Assembly: GCA_003170035.1 (NCBI GenBank)
Contig: PMZX01000540.1
Span: 3,888-15,408 of the forward strand
DNA: 11,521 nucleotides
Reading direction: 5' to 3'
Origin: Myxococcales bacterium
Lineage (GTDB): Bacteria; Myxococcota_A; Polyangia; Fen-1088
Every line of letters begins with the position of its first letter. The first letter of the stretch is position 1. A program made the position numbers and the translations under genes. Below, piece after piece: positions 7,533-10,890 of this stretch. The notes below the pieces were generated by a model. That model ran no database searches and had not been told where the DNA came from. It worked only from the letters and a program-made list of their open reading frames with translations.

Positions 7533-9179
7533 ATGCGCAACACGTTGCTGGTTGTCATTTTCAGCGTGATCCTGGTGTGTGGTGTTGGGGGTTGCCAGAT
7601 GCAGGGGATCGGTGTGCCAGCGCGTGACGGCGCCCCGCCCGTCGGTGGCAGGGGCGGCACCGGCGGTGCGACGACGACCGGAGGAACAACGGCGACGGGA
7701 GGTTCAACCGTGACGGGCGGTGCGAGCGCGGGGGCAGCAACGGGCGGGGCGACAGTGATCGGCGGTTCAACCGCTACCGGCGGGGTGACCAGCCAAGCTG
7801 GAGCATCAGCTTCGGCGGGAGCGACAAGTTCAGGGGGAATCGGTGGCCTGACCACGACGGGTGGCGTGGGTGGAAGGACGGTCACCGGCGGCAGCACGGG
7901 CGGCGCGACCGCGCGCGGAGGCACGACCGCGACGGGAGGCGTGACCTCGGGAGGCACGACTGCGACGGGCGGCACGACCGCGCGGGGAGGAGCGACCGCG
8001 ACGGGCGGCACGACCGCGCGGGGAGGAGCGACCGCGACGGGCGGCGCGACCGTGAGGGGAGGCACGACAGGGATGGGCGGCGTGACCATGGGTGGCACGA
8101 CAACGATGGGTGGAACGACCGCGAGCGGAGGCACCACCAGCACGGGTGGCGGGAAGATGTGCCAGGGCATCTACAGTTTCACCTGTGCGGTCGGACAATT
8201 CTGCGACCTCACTATGGGAAGTTGCGGGACGATCGCGGACAGCGGAGGGACCTGCACTGACACTGGTTCCACCGTAGTCTGCCCCAAGAACCTCGCGCCG
8301 GTGTGCGGGTGCAATGGGCAGACGTACGACAACGATTGCCTGCGCCAAGCCGCCGGGGTGTCCAAAGCCTCGAACGGATCTTGCCCCGCCACCTCTGCGG
8401 CCTGTCCCGCCGATTTCTCGCAGATCGCCGGATGGCCATGCACTGAGGGACTAACCTGCGAATACGGCACCGATCCTCGTCCCAGTTGCCGGATCAGCGC
8501 GACCTGCACCGGAGGAACCTGGGCCGTCACCACACCCAAGTGCGTGGCCTTGCCGCCCGTGACCTGCCCGGCCACGCGCGAGGCTGCCGCTGGGCAAAGC
8601 TGCCCGACCCAAGACGCCTACTGCACCTATGCGGACCTTACTTGCCAATGCACCAACTGCACCAACGGTCCCGTGGTTGGGTGTGCAGGATCGCCGACCT
8701 GGCATTGCGCTGTTCCCAACGCCGATCCGGCCTGTCCTCCGGGCATTCCGTTGCTGGGCTCGGTCTGCAGCACTGCGAACAAGACCTGCAGGTACGCCTG
8801 TGGGCCCGGTGGTGCGCGTCTTTGCCAGCAGGGCGCCTGGTACGCCGCAAATGGCGGGCCGTGCCCGGTGTCGAGCCGGCGGGCCAAGAAGAACATCCTC
8901 TATCTGAGCGAGGCCGAGCGGCAACGCGTGGCCGAGGATCTGGCGCGTTTCAAGCTGGCCACCTACGAGTACCGGGATCCTGCGCTGGGCAACCGGCGCT
9001 ACCTGGGGTTCATCATCGAGGATGTTCCTGGCAGCCCAGCCGTGGATCGCGATGGCACGATGGTGGACTTGTACGGCTACACCAGCATGCTGGTGGCTGC
9101 GGTCCAGGCTCAAGGCGAGGCGCTCGCCAAGTTGCAGGCCGAGCTGGCGCAGGTGAAACGCAGGTTGCGCGTGAAGTAG
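7533..9179 (+). CDS. Gly/Thr-repeat lipoprotein with Kazal-like, Cys-rich and S74 self-cleavage domains
   Basis: A 548-residue predicted lipoprotein; the ATG at 7533 has AGGAG (7522-7526) 6 nt upstream. A signal peptide ends at a lipobox Val-Gly-Gly-Cys21. Residues 38-207 are almost only Gly, Thr, Ala and Ser, with Gly-Gly about every six residues. Residues 241-284 match the bacterial Kazal-like fold: Cys at 241, 250, 258, 260, 269 and 284 around Pro-Val-Cys-Gly-Cys-Asn-Gly-Gln-Thr-Tyr. Three degenerate Cys-rich modules follow (291-337, 345-392, 401-444). Residues 447-548 are an S74/endosialidase chaperone domain: Ser-Ser-Arg-Arg-Ala-Lys-Lys-Asn-Ile (447-455) gives the Ser447/Lys452 dyad, with Leu-Gly-Phe-Ile-Ile-Glu-Asp-Val (491-498) and a coiled-coil end (about 517-545). 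In phage tail proteins this domain drives trimerisation and then cuts itself off. A trimeric surface fibre matured by self-cleavage is the inference; the target is unknown, and the Kazal domain could inhibit a protease. Confidence 0.85.
   Translation: MRNTLLVVIFSVILVCGVGGCQMQGIGVPARDGAPPVGGRGGTGGATTTGGTTATGGSTVTGGASAGAATGGATVIGGSTATGGVTSQAGASASAGATSSGGIGGLTTTGGVGGRTVTGGSTGGATARGGTTATGGVTSGGTTATGGTTARGGATATGGTTARGGATATGGATVRGGTTGMGGVTMGGTTTMGGTTASGGTTSTGGGKMCQGIYSFTCAVGQFCDLTMGSCGTIADSGGTCTDTGSTVVCPKNLAPVCGCNGQTYDNDCLRQAAGVSKASNGSCPATSAACPADFSQIAGWPCTEGLTCEYGTDPRPSCRISATCTGGTWAVTTPKCVALPPVTCPATREAAAGQSCPTQDAYCTYADLTCQCTNCTNGPVVGCAGSPTWHCAVPNADPACPPGIPLLGSVCSTANKTCRYACGPGGARLCQQGAWYAANGGPCPVSSRRAKKNILYLSEAERQRVAEDLARFKLATYEYRDPALGNRRYLGFIIEDVPGSPAVDRDGTMVDLYGYTSMLVAAVQAQGEALAKLQAELAQVKRRLRVK
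7644..8153 (+). repeat. Gly/Thr hexapeptide-coding repeat region
   Basis: This segment encodes residues 38-207 of the lipoprotein. From about residue 141 the pattern is a regular hexapeptide of Thr or Ala, Thr, two variable residues and Gly-Gly (an 18-nt DNA period); before that it is looser. Within it, two identical 36-bp copies stand in tandem at 7962-7997 and 7998-8033, and a third copy begins at 8034 and diverges after about 12 nt. The exact copies indicate recent duplication by slippage or unequal exchange, so the tract is probably length-variable. Confidence 0.85.
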
Positions 9180-9251: not shown

Positions 9252-9281
9252 ACTTTGCAAACCACGGTCATACTCAGCAGC

Positions 9282-10208
9282 ATGACAGGCCGACACATCG
9301 GCGCCGTGGCCGGAACACTCCTCGCGGGGATCGGCTGCATGAAGGCAGACCGGCTGGTGGCAGTCCAGAACGACGCAGTCCAGATGGATGGGGGCGGAGA
9401 CGCTTCTCTGGTGGTGGGGACACCCTTTTTCGCGCCCACGCCGGTCACTGGCCTGGTCGCCGACACAACCACCGATGCCCATGGTCCCTCGCTCACTGGC
9501 GATGAATTGCAAATCTACTTCTCGTGCGTAAGGCAGGGTGAAGCGACCTACCACATCTGGACCAGCACGCGGGACTCACGCGATGCCAAGTGGAACGTGG
9601 CCACGATGGTTGACGACCTCCTCAGCGCCTATAACGAACAGGATCCAGACGTTTCCCCCGATGGCAAGACCATCTACTTCGCAAGTGACCAATCCGGCGA
9701 GGGGTATCAGCTCTTTGTCTCGCAGCAGACCCCCACAGGGTGGGGTAACCCCACGCTCGTCCAGGGACAGGGTCTTGTCTCTTCCAGCCTGGACTTCAGG
9801 GGACCCAGCGTGGATCCCAGTGGGCTCTTCATGACTTTTTGCTCCGCTCCGCGGGGCAGCGAAGACTTTACCCTCTACTCCGCATCCCGCGCCAACCTGC
9901 TGGCAGCCTGGGGAAATGTGCAGCGGCTTGCGGTCAACTCAAGCATGGCAGACGCGGACCCCGCGCTCTTCAATGATTCGCGTTCCCTTGTCTGGAGCTC
10001 TCGCGCTCCCAGCAACGGAAGATCCTGGGATCTCGTCGAAATCAGCCTTGACCCGTCCTCCCCCTTTTCCGCTGCGTCAATTCCCCTGGACTCTCTCAAT
10101 ACGGCTATTTCGGAGCGCTATCCTTGGGTTTCGCGGGATGGCACCCATATCCTGTTCACCAGGGAGGCTGTCGGAGCCCCTGGCGTCATCTATGAAGCAT
10201 GGCGGTGA
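9282..10208 (+). CDS. Exported PD40 (TolB-like) beta-propeller protein
   Basis: A 308-residue protein with an N-terminal hydrophobic segment (about 6-18) ending at Gly-Ile-Gly-Cys19, a non-canonical lipobox, so lipoprotein status is uncertain. The body carries five PD40/WD40-like motifs: Gly-Pro-Ser-Leu-Thr-Gly-Asp (68-82), Asp-Pro-Asp-Val-Ser-Pro-Asp-Gly-Lys (121-135, the closest to consensus), Gly-Pro-Ser-Val-Asp-Pro-Ser-Gly (174-188), Asp-Pro-Ala-Leu (226-240) and Tyr-Pro-Trp-Val-Ser-Arg-Asp-Gly-Thr (280-294). Each is followed by a short hydrophobic beta strand, which predicts a five- or six-blade propeller of the TolB C-terminal type. Such domains usually bind proteins or peptides; no catalytic residues are visible. 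The ATG at 9282 is preferred over a TTG at 9255, which would sit only 3 nt after the possible -10 box. Third codon positions look less G/C-biased than in the bat genes. Confidence 0.75.
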   Translation: MTGRHIGAVAGTLLAGIGCMKADRLVAVQNDAVQMDGGGDASLVVGTPFFAPTPVTGLVADTTTDAHGPSLTGDELQIYFSCVRQGEATYHIWTSTRDSRDAKWNVATMVDDLLSAYNEQDPDVSPDGKTIYFASDQSGEGYQLFVSQQTPTGWGNPTLVQGQGLVSSSLDFRGPSVDPSGLFMTFCSAPRGSEDFTLYSASRANLLAAWGNVQRLAVNSSMADADPALFNDSRSLVWSSRAPSNGRSWDLVEISLDPSSPFSAASIPLDSLNTAISERYPWVSRDGTHILFTREAVGAPGVIYEAWR

Positions 10209-10266: not shown

Positions 10267-10890
10267 ATGGCGCCCGCCGAAAGCGAAGCTCGTCTTGCTG
10301 TCGCCGCTGAGGTGCAATCGTCGCACGAGAGCGGGTACGAGTTGACGGTGCTGGCGTTGGAGGCGCGAGATCGCGATCCCGCGGCCATGCGCAGCTTTCT
10401 GGAAGCCATCGCACCCTCGGTACGCAGCGTCTGCCGCGGCGTAATGGGGGCGGGCCACGTCGACCTGGAAGATACCGTCCAGGAATGCCTGATCGAGATT
10501 CTGCGTGCCCTGCCCAAGTACCGTGTTGAAGGCGCCATTGTGCACTACACGAACCGTATCGCGCTACGGGCATCAATCGCCGCGCGCAAGCGAGGACGAA
10601 GCCGCGAGCAGCGGCTGCGCACGCTCGCTGAGCAGTCTTGCCCACCGAATGTCCCTGCCAACGAAGACACGCTTCCCAACCTCTGGTTGTTGCGCGAGAT
10701 CATCGACGAACTGTCGGCAGTGCAGGCCGAGACCGTTCTCATGCGCATGGTTCTTGGTTGCTCGGTGGAGGAGACGGCTGCGGCTACCCAGGTGCCGGTC
10801 AACACGGCCAAGAGTCGTCTGCGCTTGGCCAAGGACTACCTGCGCCGTCGACTCGACGAGGAACCTGTCGACTGGAAAGGTCGAGCATGA
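10267..10890 (+). CDS. ECF-type sigma-70 family RNA polymerase sigma factor
   Basis: A 207-residue sigma factor with regions 2 and 4 only. Region 2 (about 38-108) contains Asp-Leu-Glu-Asp-Thr-Val-Gln-Glu-Cys-Leu-Ile-Glu-Ile-Leu (66-79), the helix that binds the core enzyme, followed by a basic stretch rich in Arg. Region 4 (about 141-195) contains the helix-turn-helix from Cys165 to about Leu192, with Ser-Val-Glu-Glu-Thr-Ala and then Val-Asn-Thr-Ala-Lys-Ser-Arg-Leu. The N-terminus is about 24-30 residues longer than in most ECF factors; an internal GTG at 10348 would give the shorter form, but promoter position favours the ATG at 10267. It overlaps the anti-sigma gene by 4 nt (ATGA), giving translational coupling and balanced synthesis. 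The ECF subgroup and target promoters cannot be read from this sequence. Confidence 0.88.
   Translation: MAPAESEARLAVAAEVQSSHESGYELTVLALEARDRDPAAMRSFLEAIAPSVRSVCRGVMGAGHVDLEDTVQECLIEILRALPKYRVEGAIVHYTNRIALRASIAARKRGRSREQRLRTLAEQSCPPNVPANEDTLPNLWLLREIIDELSAVQAETVLMRMVLGCSVEETAAATQVPVNTAKSRLRLAKDYLRRRLDEEPVDWKGRA

Follow-up and report, generated by a model that had tools for sequence, protein, structure and literature searches.

The lipoprotein gene at positions 7533-9179 of an 11,521-nucleotide stretch of DNA (hereafter the window; contig PMZX01000540.1, positions 3,888 to 15,408, of the Myxococcales assembly GCA_003170035.1, a 5.2-Mb draft genome in 540 contigs) ends in a divergent relative of the S74 self-cleaving chaperone domain. 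Far from being a one-off fusion, the protein belongs to a divergent S74 clade that is cellular and broad, and its closest named relative, in "Myxococcales bacterium isolate fen_1144", is 94% identical in the S74 domain. Our favored, reasonably probable interpretation is that these bacteria domesticated S74 as a cap that helps disulfide-rich lipoproteins, probably of the cell surface, to fold and then trims them. The layout of the gene is as follows:

7533-9179, + strand: whole gene, a 548-residue lipoprotein precursor (open reading frame, ORF, and its translation).
7533-7595, + strand: signal peptide with lipobox, Cys21 at 7593-7595 (read from the sequence).
7641-8153, + strand: Gly/Thr/Ala stalk, residues 37-207, with a period of 6 residues or 18 bases (repeat analysis).
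8160-8252, + strand: Cys-rich stretch preceding the Kazal core, residues 210-240 (by eye, resembling the stretch before the Kazal units of relatives).
8253-8387, + strand: Kazal domain, residues 241-285, putative P1 residue Lys252 at 8286-8288 (Pfam and alignment with the leech-derived tryptase inhibitor, LDTI).
8403-8543, + strand: Cys-rich repeat 1, residues 291-337 (sequence).
8565-8708, + strand: Cys-rich repeat 2, residues 345-392 (sequence).
8733-8864, + strand: Cys-rich repeat 3, residues 401-444, its last residue the invariant Cys444 (sequence).
8862-8873, + strand: junction Cys444-Pro445-Val446|Ser447, predicted scissile bond 446|447 (Cys-Pro and Ser/Lys in 107 of 109 distinct copies).
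8871-9176, + strand: S74/ICA domain, residues 447-548, 11.5 kDa, isoelectric point 9.7, Lys452 at 8886-8888 (profiles, predicted fold, alignment).

The C-terminal domain is almost certainly homologous to S74. The match of the full protein to the Pfam S74 profile was under the cut-off (15.8 vs 22 bits, E 0.017), and the domain searched alone scored 19.7 bits (E 0.001); the identity is secure despite these sub-threshold values because of the family, the profile-profile comparison and the predicted fold. Among the 40 family members, 37 matched the Pfam profile at E up to 1 (best 1.4e-8), and hhalign against 12 canonical S74 domains of the same class gave 98.5% probability (E 3e-15) with the catalytic dyad in register; these 12 came from 14 canonical loci lacking Cys-Pro, the other two of which, the Cys-rich L099 and L113, were excluded. 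For the predicted fold (pLDDT 89), the four best PDB entries were all solved S74/ICA chaperones, MyRF first, with a best Foldseek E of only 1.1e-3. A profile search of PDB sequences returned weak matches, the best being a long tail fibre (6f45, E 0.095) in which the S74 motif lines up. The four remaining matches, among them three clostridial neurotoxin chains, were taken as chance (E 0.3 or more). The initial annotation had placed Ser447 and Lys452 at the spacing of the autoproteolytic dyad, and both indeed align with the canonical Ser and Lys. It had also looked to profile searches for confirmation of S74 and Kazal domains, which was obtained above the cut-off for Kazal and, for S74, through the family and not through the window protein alone. 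Ser448 stands where the S74 consensus has Asp and, given the absence of this Asp, the domain is assigned to a divergent S74-homologous clade and not to the canonical SDxxxK members.

Relatives of this domain were widespread within the phylum. Its last 146 residues used as query matched at E <=0.001 in 19 of 59 related genomes, including its own. A profile of 13 of those 19 places (alignment A1; L006, L015, L016, L017, L018 and L019 excluded) had matches in 77 of 317 genomes of the class, and a second profile of 40 rows (A2) in 89 of 377 genomes of the phylum, both counts including weak matches to canonical S74. Strong matches, counted by hand from the lists, were present in 56 of these 77 genomes (56 of 317 in the class; E below 1e-15) and in 73 of the 89 (73 of 377 sampled genomes in the phylum, about a fifth; E below 1e-20). 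The second alignment combined the window with 39 of 41 loci from a one-peptide-pattern scan of named genome contigs, all 41 being confirmed relatives, with titles that include Myxococcales, Myxococcota, Sandaracinaceae, Deltaproteobacteria, Proteobacteria, Pseudomonadota, one Oligoflexia and two Polyangium strains (relatives in Polyangium sp. 6x1 and y55x31 are at L044 and L051); the two excluded loci (L022 and L052), both truncated on the 5' side, lacked CPxSxxxxK.

To survey the motif, a profile starting after the dyad was used and the dyad was sought within 4 residues of its expected place. This yielded 109 distinct domains from 179 loci, of which 107 had Ser-x4-Lys intact, all 107 with Cys-Pro at positions -3 and -2 (CPx|SxxxxK); in the two exceptions, L006 and L015, the whole N-terminal part was absent. 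Positions +1 to +3 were variable, and Asp at +1 occurred only in two of the 107, both of them canonical-type rows (L103 and L115). All 107 had at least seven Cys within the 60 residues preceding the Ser (7.8 on average). By eye, Cys-Pro terminates at least three kinds of Cys module, and the junction therefore outlives the modules. We consider it very likely that the dyad is under functional constraint. Titles and abstract beginnings in the open-licence literature revealed nothing on S74 lipoproteins of Myxococcota among the matches listed.

The S74 domain is the more slowly evolving part of the protein. By simple counting on one pair of genes, the window and L020, dN/dS was about 0.05 in the S74 part and about 0.23 in the Cys modules. 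The close intact relative L002/L020 has no Kazal domain, and 19 of the 107 S74 proteins carry Kazal units (one to three each, 26 in total, by regular expression). Together with the stronger constraint on S74, this implies a constrained cap and an exchangeable head. The gene itself is easily lost. In genome G002 of the same genus, AQGEALGKLQAELAQVKRRLHVQ, the tail of the S74 protein, comes directly after the aminotransferase stop codon and ends in a stop of its own, with the PD40 gene next; truncated copies were present in two other genomes. At locus L019 in the window's genus, the S74 gene is down to its last codons between the aminotransferase and PD40 genes, and these two genes and that of the ECF sigma factor are kept without it. 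Loci L006 and L015, and also L022 and L052, are truncated on the 5' side, and in L006 and L015 the break is preceded by an almost identical foreign stretch.

In the mechanism that we propose, the precursor would be exported through Sec and lipidated at Cys21, as its lipobox suggests. Disulfides would form outside the cytoplasm in the Kazal core and the three Cys-rich repeats, the last Cys, Cys444, lying three residues before Ser447. By analogy with the S74 family, three S74 domains would join via their C-terminal helix and hold the chains while the heads fold. Lys452 would then activate Ser447 in the folded trimer and the Val446-Ser447 bond would be broken, giving a free 11.5-kDa basic fragment and a lipid-anchored head of ~39.7 kDa ending in ...GGPCPV. 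This head would show a Kazal loop whose P1 Lys would be suited to a trypsin-like protease. Published accounts describe S74 as trimerising and cutting before the serine (PMC3828593, PMC4690869, PMC10769870) and the MyRF ICA domain as a homotrimer (PMC6972908). On this analogy a trimer is likely here, and self-cleavage, predicted at 446|447, has probably been retained, although we hold this a little less firmly.

The strongest alternative, still an unlikely one, is that the S74 domain no longer cuts and stays on permanently to hold the trimer together, with Ser and Lys in structural roles and Cys-Pro pinning the last disulfide module to the trimer. Loss of the Asp at +1 and the lack of a conserved sensor Arg would be consistent with such a cap, and the slower evolution of the S74 part suits a retained part as well as a removed one. 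However, none of the 107 untruncated copies has lost either dyad residue or changed the distance between them, whereas positions +1 to +3 vary; in our judgement a structural role alone would rarely keep exactly a nucleophile and its base.

The head that the cap is proposed to serve combines a Kazal domain with three Cys-rich repeats. Kazal_1 (PF00050) matched residues 241-270 above the Pfam cut-off (28.2 vs 21 bits), the domain aligned with LDTI (phmmer E 8e-8), and Foldseek found a Kazal fold in the predicted structure. The likeness to LDTI, a non-classical Kazal inhibitor, extends to 55% identity over 38 aligned residues and Lys at the P1 position in both; we take Lys252 to be P1 from its alignment with the reactive site of LDTI. 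The two proteins differ in that the C4-C29 pair of LDTI is absent here (V248 and A273 instead), C241 and C260 being present. Thus the six-Cys Kazal-like domain announced earlier stands as to profile and number of nearby Cys, but its Cys arrangement is not the six-Cys arrangement of LDTI. The same CGC variant was found in 26 of 26 Kazal units counted in the S74 family, and L123, L137, L174 and others are lipoproteins with one to three CGC-type units. Across the 26 units, the P1 residue was Ala (7), Met (7), Lys (5), Thr (4), Glu (2) or Asp (1), variation that would fit either inhibitors engaged in an arms race or a loss of function. That the Kazal domain of the window protein is an active inhibitor is possible, with odds falling slightly on the negative side. 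The Cys-rich modules were correctly recognized and are, by eye, three copies of one motif, roughly CP...G..C...C.Y....C. The structural model of residues 205-548 (10 rows) was weak (pLDDT 61, poor over S74); in Foldseek searches with it, no family besides Kazal and no beta-helix or beta-prism shaft stood out.

At the other end of the protein, C21 closes a signal peptide and lipobox (MRNTLLVVIFSVILVCGVGGC), in agreement with the lipid anchor first proposed. Lipobox-like Cys residues were also called by regular expression in 79 of the 107 relatives, some calls being wrong (the window was called at C16, and L176 and L179 within the Kazal domain). In Myxococcus, according to one report, Lys at +2 sorts lipoproteins to the inner membrane and Ala at +7 to the matrix (PMC3222651). 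The CQMQGIG start fits neither signal, weak evidence that the protein would go to the outer membrane by default.

Between the lipid anchor and the head lies a stalk of 171 residues (63 Gly, 49 Thr and 25 Ala), in which the hexapeptide repetition recognized from the outset was confirmed: identity at a lag of six residues was 0.47, compared with a mean of 0.24 after shuffling (maximum 0.34, 500 shuffles), and the DNA period was 18 bases. The initial annotation had proposed a trimeric surface fibre held together in this region by polyglycine-II-like packing of the Gly-Gly repeats. The S74 domain makes a trimer plausible, and GG spacing was six residues in 19 of 29 intervals, with a longest unbroken GGxxxx run of seven. 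However, the longest G-x-y run is nine residues, which is not collagen-like, and stalks of the same make-up occur without S74. Kazal searches in the 18 genomes of the taxonomic family gave 30 fetched loci with 26 distinct Kazal ORFs by regular expression, four ending in S74 and 22 without it; 13 of these 22 bear such a stalk, a count resting on the fetched loci, further Kazal matches having had no locus. The window's own genome encodes a second Kazal lipoprotein, L181, in which repeated Cys modules and a Gly/Ser linker are present but S74 is not. Nor was the stalk tied to the trimerising domain among the 75 S74 relatives whose lipobox call was usable (L001, L030, L176 and L179 excluded by hand): their linkers were Gly-rich in 12, shorter than 15 residues in 11 and of another kind in 52, such that S74 occurs without a Gly stalk in 63. 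The stalk is therefore a real, repetitive, but generic spacer, and the polyglycine-II bundle, for which these two counts leave no specific support, was rejected as very improbable. The term fibre is itself doubtful, as the region preceding S74 is disulfide-rich, and no triple beta-helix was seen there, though the model of this region is weak.

The clade of the window was not encountered among viruses or other mobile elements: a single peptide pattern matched 15 stretches in viral contigs, none of them confirmed as a relative, and one query each found no relative in phage and plasmid records. Since tblastn with the window's domain misses all phage S74, canonical domains included, these absences speak for the window's clade only. 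A second, canonical set of S74 domains was found in the same class, with CPx|SD in 16 of the 30 having the motif and mostly a lipoprotein-like start, and as query it recovered 58 viral loci and 68 phage records in the same two kinds of search. These CPx|SDxxxK loci (L018, L098, L100, L103-L105, L107-L109, L111, L112 and L115-L119) have a knottin-like Cys pattern and, in many cases, Ser/Thr- or Gly-Asp-rich stalks. After eight of the 58 viral loci without the dyad (sought in the same way) were set aside and duplicates merged, 41 distinct viral relatives of the second type remained, with Cys-Pro in none, Asp at +1 in 38 and a mean of 0.3 upstream Cys. Gly is the commonest residue at many of the last 25 positions before the Ser in the viral loci (L210-L267), and S74 may often act without a beta-helix directly before it, in phages too.

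In a tree of 68 rows the window's clade was separate (support 100/98) on a long stem, and in one of 91 rows, which took 22 of the 40 A2 rows, it was single (100/99, stem about 1.2) with no viral row; the CPx|SD proteins grouped with viral sequences (97/96 for that 59-row side), both trees resting on few columns. Recent capture of a phage tail-fibre end, that is, prophage debris fused to a cellular lipoprotein, is scarcely credible and was rejected: S74 is known mainly from phages and the S74 domains of same-class CPx|SD lipoproteins nest with viral sequences, but the separate clade, the lack of viral, phage or plasmid matches in the one-pattern and one-query searches, the strong matches in 73 of 377 genomes of the phylum and the purifying selection on the gene all argue against it. 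The domesticated cellular use suggested at first is supported by these searches, by the spread of the family over the phylum and by the lack of phage genes among the neighbors scanned. Coupling of Cys-Pro to the cut site occurs on two separate S74 branches, likely by convergence, with loss in phages as the alternative, a comparison that again depends on few tree columns.

This junction may have a bearing on how cleavage would be controlled. In phage T5, an Arg of the neighboring chain gates the cut (PMC4690869). No equivalent sensor Arg was conserved in the window's clade or in the viral set, and it was dropped as a discriminating feature, being rare in the latter too. The gate, if any, must therefore differ, and the invariant Cys-Pro is a candidate. 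We speculate, as a rather unlikely option, that Cys-Pro makes S74 a redox and folding checkpoint, the Val-Ser bond entering the active site only after the last disulfide closes. If so, cleavage would certify oxidised heads, and a sensor of beta-helix folding would have been turned into one of disulfide folding in myxobacteria. The presence of the arrangement both in the window's clade and, on a separate branch, in the CPx|SD lipoproteins suggests convergence.

By Pfam, the neighboring genes encode two VWA proteins, TPR proteins and BatD, which make up a Bat operon, together with an aminotransferase, a PD40 protein and an ECF sigma factor. The next gene (9255-10208) encodes the PD40 beta-propeller protein, itself lipoprotein-like with GIGC near its start, and is followed by the ECF sigma factor gene at 10267-10890. 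As had been stated from the sequence alone, no phage genes were found near 7533-9179 among the nine neighboring ORFs scanned, one of which, the short ORF at 139-534, had no Pfam match. The lipoprotein itself had no match in NCBIfam or PADLOC and a single weak one in PHROGs (tail protein, E 0.015).

Known S74 domains act as caps in the folding and trimming of trimeric phage spikes, of a eukaryotic transcription factor family and of Bdellovibrio fibres. Across the strong-match genomes of the phylum, a divergent S74 is instead coupled to lipoprotein heads that are rich in disulfides and in some cases contain Kazal arrays. Chaperoning and self-cleavage by S74 on a disulfide-rich substrate thereby become directly testable, small proteins of this kind being convenient for studying the cut, and the results point to a myxobacterial lipoprotein class that was absent from the literature matches listed. 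The intramolecular chaperones of phage endosialidase, T5 pb1 and 3gud share fold and dyad with the window protein but belong to fibre or spike proteins, and the viral relatives that we fetched lack Cys-Pro at the cut site. The ICA domain of MyRF/MrfA has an SD motif and serves a different purpose, as part of a eukaryotic transcription factor that is tethered to the membrane. Among known systems, the mosaic adhesive trimer (MAT) proteins of Bdellovibrio come closest through their S74 subgroup (Bd3182). They are likewise cellular, secreted and modular and have S74 at the C-terminus; S74 is self-cleaving in MATs and has 13 members in one genome (PMC10769870). MATs are trimeric beta-helix/beta-prism fibres of about 1000 residues with an SDxxxK motif and a conserved beta-rich domain of ~130 residues after the signal peptide, where the window protein has its low-complexity stalk. 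The window protein thus differs from the MATs in its lipid anchor, low-complexity linker, disulfide-rich modules and a CPx|SxxxxK junction without Asp.
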